Positions 15,762-19,010 of a DNA stretch of 64,000 nt are shown here, piece by piece. Below the pieces are notes generated by a model. It was not told where the DNA came from and did not search any database. It saw nothing but the letters and a program-made list of their open reading frames with translations. Made by a program: the position numbers and the translations under genes. The stretch comes from Armatimonadetes bacterium Uphvl-Ar1 (lineage in GTDB: Bacteria; Armatimonadota; Fimbriimonadia; Fimbriimonadales; Fimbriimonadaceae): the NCBI GenBank assembly GCA_002162075.1, contig CP021423.1, forward strand, positions 1,860,001-1,924,000. Reading direction: 5' to 3'. Every line of letters begins with the position of its first letter. Positions within the stretch are counted from its first letter, which is position 1.

Positions 15762-15794
15762 TCCCCTTGGATCACTCATCCAAGGGGACTTTTT
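15762..15794 (+). terminator. Intrinsic terminator after the Gfo/Idh/MocA gene
   Basis: TCCCCTTGGAT (15762-15772) pairs perfectly with ATCCAAGGGGA (15778-15788) around CACTC, followed by CTTTTT. It terminates the plus-strand dehydrogenase gene; the T-run touches the stop of the convergent lyase gene. Confidence 0.85.
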
Positions 15795-16953
15795 ATGTCA
15801 ACGCCGCAAAGGCCTGATCAATATCCTCTTTCAAATCTTCAATATCTTCTAGCCCCGCATAAAACCGAATCGCCCATTTCTCCTCGGGCCAATCCATCGG
15901 CTTGCCAAAAATCGGCACCGCCAAGCTCTCATAACCACCCCAGCTCACCCCCATCTGGAACACTTCCAAGTTCTCTAGGAACGCTCGTACCCACTCCTCT
16001 TCCTGGTGCCGCGGAATGATCGTCACCAAAGACGTATGCCCCGTCTGTTGCCGCGCAATCAAGCCCGCCTGAGAATGTTCCGGATCGCCAGAATAGTAAA
16101 TCTCCGCCACTTCATCACGCCCCCGCAAAAACTCAAAAAGCTCTTTACCCACCCTCTGCGCTTCTTCCACTCTGAGCCGCAAGGTTCGCATCCCCCTCAG
16201 CAACAACCAAGCATCAAACGGCGCCAACCTCGCCCCCAGCCACTGCCCTTCCCGGAGTTCAATCGCTCGGCAAATCTCTCGACTCGCACAAAGTGCCCCC
16301 GCGACCACATCACTGTGACCCGCCAAGTATTTCGTCGCCGAATGCAGAACAATATCAACACCCATCGCCGCCGGATTCTGAAAAATCGGCGAGCAATTGG
16401 AATTGTCAATCAGAGTCAATATCCCCCGCTCCCGGGCAAATCCTGTCACGACCGCCAAATCCTGAATCCGGAACAATACACTGCTCGGCGACTCCAGATA
16501 AATCAACTTCGTATTTTCGCGAACCGCCCTAAAGATCTCTTCGGGGTCAACTCCCACCACCATCGTGGTCTCCACGCCAATCCCCGGCAGATACTCCAGT
16601 AAAAAACTCCGCGTTGGACCATAAGCTGTGTCCACGCAAACAACATGATCCCCCGCCCGCACCCCATGCAAAATCGCTGCCGAAATCGCTGCCATCCCAC
16701 TCCCAAACACCAGCGCATCTTCTGTCCCCTCCAGCATCGCCAGCTTTTTCTCCACCATCGTCAAATTGGGATTCCCTACCCGACTGTAAATGTAATGTTC
16801 TTTCTCAGCCGAAGAGTCCGCCAGCTTCCCCCGCAAAGAATCAAATGTGTCATGGACGAACAACGAAGTCTGAAAAATCGGCGGCGTCACTGCCCCCAAG
16901 TGATGAACCTCTTCGCCTAGATGCTGTAACTTCGTGTCCCGCCGCATGACCAA
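15793..16953 (-). CDS. Trans-sulfuration family PLP enzyme (cystathionine gamma-synthase/lyase-like)
   Basis: A 386-residue Cys/Met metabolism PLP enzyme. YSRVGNPN (about 56-63) and FGSGMAAISAAI form the PLP phosphate site. LIYLESPSSVLFRIQDL and DNSNCSPIFQNP follow, with the Schiff-base Lys in HSATKYLAGHSDVVAG (about 210). The family includes MetB, MetC and methionine gamma-lyase; the motifs do not decide which reaction. The start at 16953 gives a normal N terminus (DTKLQHLG). No sulfur genes are adjacent. It converges on the dehydrogenase across a terminator. Confidence 0.9.
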   Translation of the reverse strand: MVMRRDTKLQHLGEEVHHLGAVTPPIFQTSLFVHDTFDSLRGKLADSSAEKEHYIYSRVGNPNLTMVEKKLAMLEGTEDALVFGSGMAAISAAILHGVRAGDHVVCVDTAYGPTRSFLLEYLPGIGVETTMVVGVDPEEIFRAVRENTKLIYLESPSSVLFRIQDLAVVTGFARERGILTLIDNSNCSPIFQNPAAMGVDIVLHSATKYLAGHSDVVAGALCASREICRAIELREGQWLGARLAPFDAWLLLRGMRTLRLRVEEAQRVGKELFEFLRGRDEVAEIYYSGDPEHSQAGLIARQQTGHTSLVTIIPRHQEEEWVRAFLENLEVFQMGVSWGGYESLAVPIFGKPMDWPEEKWAIRFYAGLEDIEDLKEDIDQAFAALT

Positions 16954-17725: not shown

Positions 17726-17786
17726 CCCGAAAAAACCCCCTGCAACCTTCACCAAATCCCGAAACGTCCCTATAATCAGGTCACTA

Positions 17787-19010
17787 ATGCTTGCCGCCCT
17801 TCTCCTCACCGCACAAGCTCCAACCCAAACCCCGAGCCGGCTCACTTGGCAAACTTTTGAGCAAATCAAAGCCCACGCTTCTCTCCAAGGGAACGACACT
17901 GTATTCCAATCCCTCGACTGGCGAACCCGAATTTTCGACGGCCTCGTCGCTGGTTCAAAGGCCGATAAACCCGTCCTTCTCTGGATGTATTTCGGCGACC
18001 CGCGCGGCCACTGCTGACAAAATGGCGCAAAAACCAGACAGTTCGTCTGGACTCGACCCGAAATCGCCCAATACGTTTCCACCAACCTCATCCCCGTCGC
18101 TGCCGACGATGTGAGTTACAACGAGCACCCCGACAAATCAAACTGGGAACACCGCATCACAACCAAAATTTTCAGCCGAAATCCCGCTGGAATCCACCAA
18201 GGAATCTATGTCGCAACCCCCTCTGGCCAACTCCTCGCCCGAGTCAATGCCGGATGGCCCGACCCCGACGCCGATGAAACCCTCCGGCTCATCAAACAAG
18301 CTGTCTCGCGCTACAAGCAACTTCCGGTGAACGAACGCATCATCACCGAACTCCCCGACCCAAAAACCGACCGCCTCACATTCAAACAAGACCAATTCAC
18401 CAAACCGAAAGGGACCCTTGACCTGCGCGTCACCAAGAGGGGCTACTCCTTCCCCGGAATGACTACTTTCGACGAACGCCATCCCAAATTCTTTGGCATC
18501 GACCGCCTCTGGTTCAAGCCATCGGAATACAAACAGTTCATCCCCCGCCAACTCGCTGCGAACGCCTCAGTCAGCATCAAGGGGCCTGCCCTCGAACGCT
18601 GGATTCTCCACAACCATATGCAAAAAGCCTGCTCCGCCTGGTGGCCCGAACACATCAAGCAGGCCTCCCTCACCAGTACCATCACCAGCATCTCAGGCGA
18701 CGCCATCGACATCGAACTCAAAGGAACTTTCCATGTCAAAGCCGACTCCGAATGGAATACCGGCTCCTACCAGGGCTCTCTTCTCGGCAAAGCCACTTAC
18801 AACCAGCGAACCCGAGAGTTCATCGCCTGGGACAGTGTCATGTACGGCAAATCAACTCTCGGCAAACTCCTCCCCAACGCTCACGTCGGTGACCCCTCTC
18901 AAATGGTCGCAACTTACGCCACCATCAACCCCCTCACTGATGCCGACGACGCCATGGTTCCATCCGACTGGCTGTACGGATACGGCCTCAACTGGTGTCG
19001 CAATCCATAA
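17787..19010 (+). CDS. Candidate selenoprotein: exported thioredoxin-like protein with Cys-Sec (in-frame TGA)
   Basis: From ATG 17787 the frame runs to a TAA at 19008-19010, interrupted only by TGA at 18015-18017. With Sec at that codon it is a 407-residue protein. The N terminus is a short signal-like peptide (MLAALLLTAQAP). Residues about 60-120 look like a thioredoxin fold: KPVLLWMYFGDPRGHC, then Sec77, then QNGAKTRQF, EIAQYVSTNLIPVAADD and GIYVATPSGQLLARVNAG. Cys76-Sec77 sits where thioredoxins place their active site. From memory, similar planctomycete-type proteins have a C-T-G-N-G motif here. About 280 further residues form a second region of unknown fold. A 6-bp hairpin lies 16 nt past the TGA. 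Without read-through the product would be a useless 76-residue stub. No frameshift is needed. Confidence 0.75.
18034..18050 (+). promoter_or_regulatory. SECIS-like hairpin downstream of the TGA at 18015-18017
   Basis: CCAGAC (18034-18039) pairs perfectly with GTCTGG (18045-18050) around an AGUUC loop. The stem begins 16 nt after the TGA and the loop 22 nt after it, with G as the second loop base, as expected of a bacterial SECIS. It lies within the coding sequence, as bacterial SECIS elements do. Function is inferred. Confidence 0.65.

Follow-up and report, generated by a model that had tools for sequence, protein, structure and literature searches.

Most often, a selenoprotein family is recognised and validated by way of its numerous homologues that contain cysteine (Cys). 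Several described systems come close to the gene analysed here. The VPGUxxT family (NF041382/NF041383) is thioredoxin-like, carries a single selenocysteine (Sec, U) or Cys in a similar N-terminal domain, and is the best named match for several relatives of our gene. The Trx7/PDZ selenoprotein (NF041199) likewise has a Thioredoxin_7-type fold with Sec, but is set apart by a CxxU motif and a PDZ domain. The exported thioredoxin-like protein 3f9u of Bacteroides fragilis is the best match by profile and structure, with the strand, the active-site helix and a W-x-D-P-x-V motif all aligning. In the iodothyronine deiodinase DIO1, Cys124 of the Cys124-Thr-Sec126 centre bonds Sec126 as a selenenyl-sulfide (PMC9141512). 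We compared with these systems the product of a gene lying in a 64,000-nucleotide stretch of Armatimonadetes DNA, hereafter referred to as the window, together with its relatives. No Pfam or NCBIfam model matched the window protein at E 0.1 or better. For Thioredoxin_7 (PF13899), the window protein gave no match and 8 of 30 family members matched weakly, below the gathering cut-off (best E 2.3e-4), while neither the window protein nor any of the 30 members matched the iodothyronine deiodinase model (PF00837) at E up to 1. The window protein itself did not match NF041382 or NF041383, and its relatives reached at most 19.5 bits (Sec forms) and 26.6 bits (the Cys homologue) against cut-offs of 350 and 275. 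None of the 30 members matched NF041199 (cut-off 300) at E 1, and the Cys homologue (L111) scored 18 bits.

The gene had been singled out in an original prediction, which described one TGA directly after a Cys codon in an otherwise intact 407-codon frame with no need of a frameshift, followed by a 16-nt spacer and a 6-bp hairpin with an AGUUC loop; our coordinates and translation agree with it throughout. The frame runs from ATG at 17787 to TAA at 19008-19010 and is interrupted by TGA at 18015-18017. Translating TGA as Sec yields 407 residues, with U77 after C76 and no further stop. The features of the locus are as follows:

17771-17776, plus strand: candidate TATAAT -10 box, 10 nt before the ATG (box enrichment upstream of family genes).
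17787-19010, plus strand: predicted selenoprotein gene, 407 residues, one Sec (U77), TAA terminator (translation with TGA as U; full-length homologue alignment on both sides of the TGA).
17787-17820, plus strand: hydrophobic N-terminus MLAALLLTAQA, probable export signal (by inspection).
17913-18326, plus strand: thioredoxin-fold domain, residues 43-180 (AF2 model aligned to 3f9u; profile match to 3f9u).
18012-18014, plus strand: Cys76 codon (TGC), proposed resolving Cys adjoining Sec (H-C-U in 9/60 members, A-C-U in 1/60, and C-T-U, with Cys at -2, in 46/60).
18015-18017, plus strand: predicted Sec-encoding TGA, U77 (TGA in 60 distinct members; selA, selB, selD and tRNA-Sec in the genome).
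18018-18050, plus strand: putative SECIS element (spacer, stem and loop fit the bacterial model; peak of synonymous constraint).
18369-19007, plus strand: beta-rich C-terminal domain, residues 195-407 (AF2 of this part, pLDDT 59.5).

Hydrophobic N-termini are alike in nearly all homologues, and from this feature the window protein is probably exported. A TATAAT-like box (at most one mismatch) was found 6-12 nt before the start of 40% of the family genes vs 10% of shuffled upstream sequences, and its closeness to the start suggests a promoter giving near-leaderless transcripts.

We then surveyed the homologues and found 54 matches in 85 genomes of the same taxonomic family, 48 of which contained exactly one in-frame TGA. 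Across Armatimonadota, 60 distinct members were read with TGA at the same column, where TAA and TAG never occur, and protein homology is present on both sides of this codon. Three paralogues reside in the genome itself (C1:1877787, which is the window gene, C1:1794223 and C1:1155938). A near relative is 93% identical, and another, in 'Armatimonadetes bacterium isolate FIMBRI1', is 50% identical. A profile built from 30 members detected relatives in 52 of 113 genomes of the order and in 75 of 291 genomes of the phylum, the weakest of these 75 being general thioredoxin-like proteins. Neither viral contigs nor plasmids yielded relatives. The homologue searches by genome were centred on Armatimonadota, and restriction to the phylum is therefore not implied; the family profile did not retrieve a weak match to a Gemmobacter MAG (L051), which we attribute to chance. 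Comparison of gene neighbourhoods across seven genomes revealed genus-level synteny but no conserved partner beyond it. A PLP-dependent enzyme resembling those of Cys/Met metabolism (window 15793-16953, minus strand; named from sequence) occurs close to the selenoprotein gene in four members of the genus and not in more distant relatives, which is probably ordinary synteny. A codon-bias scan of the window for other genes with in-frame TGA returned minus-strand frames only, several of them antisense to likely genes.

The Cys-Sec pair of the original prediction holds in the window gene but proved to be a subfamily form: up to Sec, the motif reads C-T-U (Cys-Thr-Sec) in 46 of the 60 members, H-C-U in 9, and A-C-U, C-V-U, M-T-U, T-T-U and S-T-U in one each. 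This proximal Cys is the sole Cys of many members. Sec is followed by N-N-G in 47/60 members and by Q-N-G in 10/60, and U-x-(N/K)-G is present in 60/60, in place of the CxxC or UxxC of a classical thioredoxin. In the profile alignment to 3f9u (E 2.6e-4), Sec falls opposite the first Cys of CVNC. An AF2 model of the window protein, built from a three-sequence alignment and of low confidence (mean pLDDT 51), shows a thioredoxin fold at residues 43-180, in which Sec77 occupies the loop that joins strand 63-68 to helix 79-87; this low-confidence model aligns with 3f9u (VIA) at Z 12.2 and 1.9 Å over 99 residues. No PDB entry matched significantly when Foldseek was used alone. The model, though of low confidence, thus has a thioredoxin topology and places the active residue at the start of helix 1, in agreement with the profile match to 3f9u. 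The C-terminal domain gave only tied weak matches to cystatin- or NTF2-like folds (Z about 8). The earlier description of the gene as thioredoxin-like stands as regards the fold and the placing of Sec where thioredoxins carry their nucleophilic Cys, but the family is a new one and not thioredoxin proper.

These features suggest how the protein may be made and work. SelB carrying Sec-tRNA-Sec would bind the downstream hairpin and decode UGA 18015-18017 as Sec, giving a probably exported product in which a thioredoxin-fold domain is fused to a C-terminal domain. Sec77 would sit at the start of helix 1, in the position of the thioredoxin nucleophile, and the second Cys of CxxC is replaced by the invariant Gly80 (U-x-N/K-G). 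Sec most likely serves as the catalytic selenolate; the nearby Cys, at -1 here and at -2 in most relatives, would attack the oxidised Sec to form a selenenyl-sulfide, which an external thiol would then reduce. The predicted class is a one-Sec oxidoreductase or peroxidase-like enzyme and not a dithiol isomerase, with the direction of the reaction likewise a prediction. Such a resolving-Cys cycle is slightly favoured. The resolving step cannot be universal, because positions -1 and -2 are both devoid of Cys in three members (M-T-U, T-T-U and S-T-U), of which L031 is free of Cys altogether. Alternatively, the selenoprotein might act on proteins as a classical thioredoxin or disulfide isomerase, as its nearest solved folds (3f9u, AGR2/3, DsbH, TXNDC12 and DsbD-gamma) would suggest; however, Gly stands for the second CxxC Cys in all members read and some members lack any other Cys, and we regard this role as rather unlikely, if the strongest of the competing explanations.

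At the RNA level, the spacer spans 16 nt (18018-18033), and the stem is formed by CCAGAC (18034-18039) and GUCUGG (18045-18050) around the loop AGUUC (18040-18044). The bacterial SECIS model specifies a loop of 3-9 nt, a stem of 4-16 bp, a G in the first two loop positions, a UGA-to-loop distance of 16-37 nt and an MFE of at most -7.5 (PMC13188914). The window hairpin falls within every one of these limits, as the predicted bacterial SECIS geometry implied (loop 5, stem 6, AG, UGA-to-loop 22 nt; hairpin -7.9 and region -9.8 kcal/mol). Taken alone it is unremarkable, since the region (MFE -9.8 kcal/mol, z -1.3) is equalled by 19 of 200 shuffles; it gains significance because each TGA-bearing homologue repeats both the codon and a hairpin of that geometry, and because synonymous conservation peaks at the hairpin. 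A SECIS-geometry hairpin follows 62/62 TGA sites (60 of this family and 2 of a related family, L118 and L119) vs 54% of control positions in the same genes. Hairpins below -5 kcal/mol follow 66% of TGA sites vs 15% of controls (P 2e-28, too optimistic a value given that the sequences are related). By itself the local hairpin is weaker than -7.5 kcal/mol in many relatives, yet the geometry is retained at all 62 sites. It is built from differing sequence in nearly the same place, namely CCAGRC/GUCUGG in subfamily A and its nearest relatives, GACAAG/CUUGUU in C and GGGACC/GGUUCC in D. In subfamilies A, B and C, synonymous codon identity taken in windows is highest at the SECIS, and in subfamily D the identity window following Sec is 14th of 379 (top 4%); protein conservation close by could contribute to this signal. 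The register in subfamily B is ambiguous, with two possible hairpins. Few compensatory base changes occur inside one hairpin register, so the RNA-level support comes mainly from recurrence, geometry and synonymous constraint. Rfam models scanned against the window produced no match over the gathering score.

In bacteria, Sec insertion competes with termination, and the UGA might accordingly serve mainly as a selenium-dependent regulatory stop, with a 76-residue product keeping just the N-terminus as the usual form and the full length made only when selenium is plentiful. The short form, however, would be missing the greater part of the thioredoxin domain as well as the invariant residues that follow Sec, and the entire downstream protein is under selection, which makes a chiefly regulatory stop very improbable.

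Decoding of UGA as Sec further agrees with the gene content of the genome, where the search for selA, selB, selD and tRNA-Sec advised in the original prediction recovered all four. In the assembly, a single contig of 2.99 Mb, SelA was matched at E 3e-114, SelB at E 4e-105 (over the curated cut-off) and SelD at E 5e-104, and tRNA-Sec scored 73.9 bits with anticodon TCA. SelD has an in-frame Sec-TGA of its own in the motif CAGUASK (G000:C1:2772333-2773256, L009), followed by a strong SECIS-like hairpin of -11 kcal/mol. Within the same taxonomic family, SelA was present in 28/28 genomes with a TGA member vs 50/85 overall (P 4e-9), and across the phylum in 43/47 vs 148/291 (P 1.5e-10), the 47 being the genomes with a strong TGA match in the phylum profile search; these tests ignore phylogeny and their P values are too optimistic, but the direction is clear. 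The four TGA genomes with no SelA match are all fragmented MAGs: SelB and tRNA-Sec are present in G125 and SelB in G126, both over the SelB cut-off, and completeness is 73% in G089 and 78% in G139. A genome-wide reassignment of TGA, for instance to Trp or Gly, has nothing in its favour beyond the open frame. TGA ends 16/39 long frames examined in the window, 9/42 family members with a visible stop and the GNAT gene upstream of the selenoprotein gene; its use as an ordinary stop alongside a complete Sec system excludes reassignment, whose probability we put close to nil, and indicates that UGA is read by context. An accidental TGA in a broken gene (nonsense mutation, pseudogene or sequencing error) would fit a frame that the standard code cuts in two, but is left with practically no probability by the same TGA in 60 homologues, never TAA or TAG, with the frame intact after it and synonymous constraint at the hairpin, and sequencing error is excluded because the same TGA occurs in independent assemblies, from 93% down to about 25% protein identity. 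The window gene thus very probably encodes a selenoprotein with Sec at U77, and the candidate status first proposed for it is supported by the sel genes, the TGA in 60 homologues, the recurring SECIS hairpin and synonymous constraint.

We next considered the homologues that differ at the Sec column. The earlier expectation that this column would be Cys elsewhere was borne out by TGC in L111, but this is the only such full-length homologue found, against 60 others with TGA. Four further full-length homologues have Ser or Asp there and form one clade of the tree (L044/L076 in G071, L046/L077 in G036, L048/L078 in G037 and L070/L079 in G072). SelA is absent from three of these four genomes (G037, G071 and G072), and G036 retains the machinery; G071 and G072 are also without SelB and tRNA-Sec over the cut-off, and the tRNA-Sec match of G037 is barely over it. 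Sec is almost always retained in this family, whereas most such families also have Cys versions. With hardly any Cys homologues, standard annotation would split each gene at the TGA and miss the family. Tentatively, and with less confidence than in the cycle itself, these observations may be read as an exported, phylum-wide family of selenoenzymes whose reaction is hardly replaceable by sulfur: Sec has been kept in four subfamilies with up to three paralogues per genome, the clade that lost it has Ser or Asp instead of Cys and is mostly without SelA, and Cys-Thr-Sec would represent a deiodinase-like selenenyl-sulfide cycle of a separate bacterial lineage. With three copies in this genome, the family is a widespread addition to the selenoproteome of Armatimonadota, and it offers a bacterial system for asking why a Cys-x-Sec centre needs selenium over sulfur.

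A 2026 inventory of 119 prokaryotic selenoprotein families contained nothing with the same motif and context. Our literature search returned no description of selenoproteins or selenocysteine in Armatimonadota, Fimbriimonas or Fimbriimonadales, an absence that is no proof as subscription papers fall mostly outside such a search, and the single paper with both 'selenoprotein' and 'Armatimonadetes' concerns Planctomycetes. We also observed a second, distantly related thioredoxin-like family with an in-frame TGA (L118, 893-1861, in G085; L119, 941-1813, in G108), which reads F-C-U-TNARTLRA and has SECIS-like hairpins of about -7 kcal/mol after the TGA; its Fimbriimonad homologues (L113-L117) have PCANARTLRA or ACANARTLRA, with Cys then Ala, and no NCBIfam family scored over its cut-off.

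Compared with the VPGUxxT family, the motif here is a different one, mostly C-T-U-N-N-G and H-C-U-Q-N-G in the window gene. In 3f9u, CVNC stands where these proteins have U-N-N-G or U-Q-N-G, and the matched chain is without the long C-terminal domain. The iodothyronine deiodinases share the thioredoxin fold and the Cys-x-Sec centre, most relatives here being Cys-Thr-Sec, but there is no sequence match and no sign of an iodinated substrate, and the Cys of the window protein is at -1. The likeness to deiodinases is one of working principle, not of membership. We rate the window gene as belonging to a selenoprotein family not listed before, one that is new but of a known kind.
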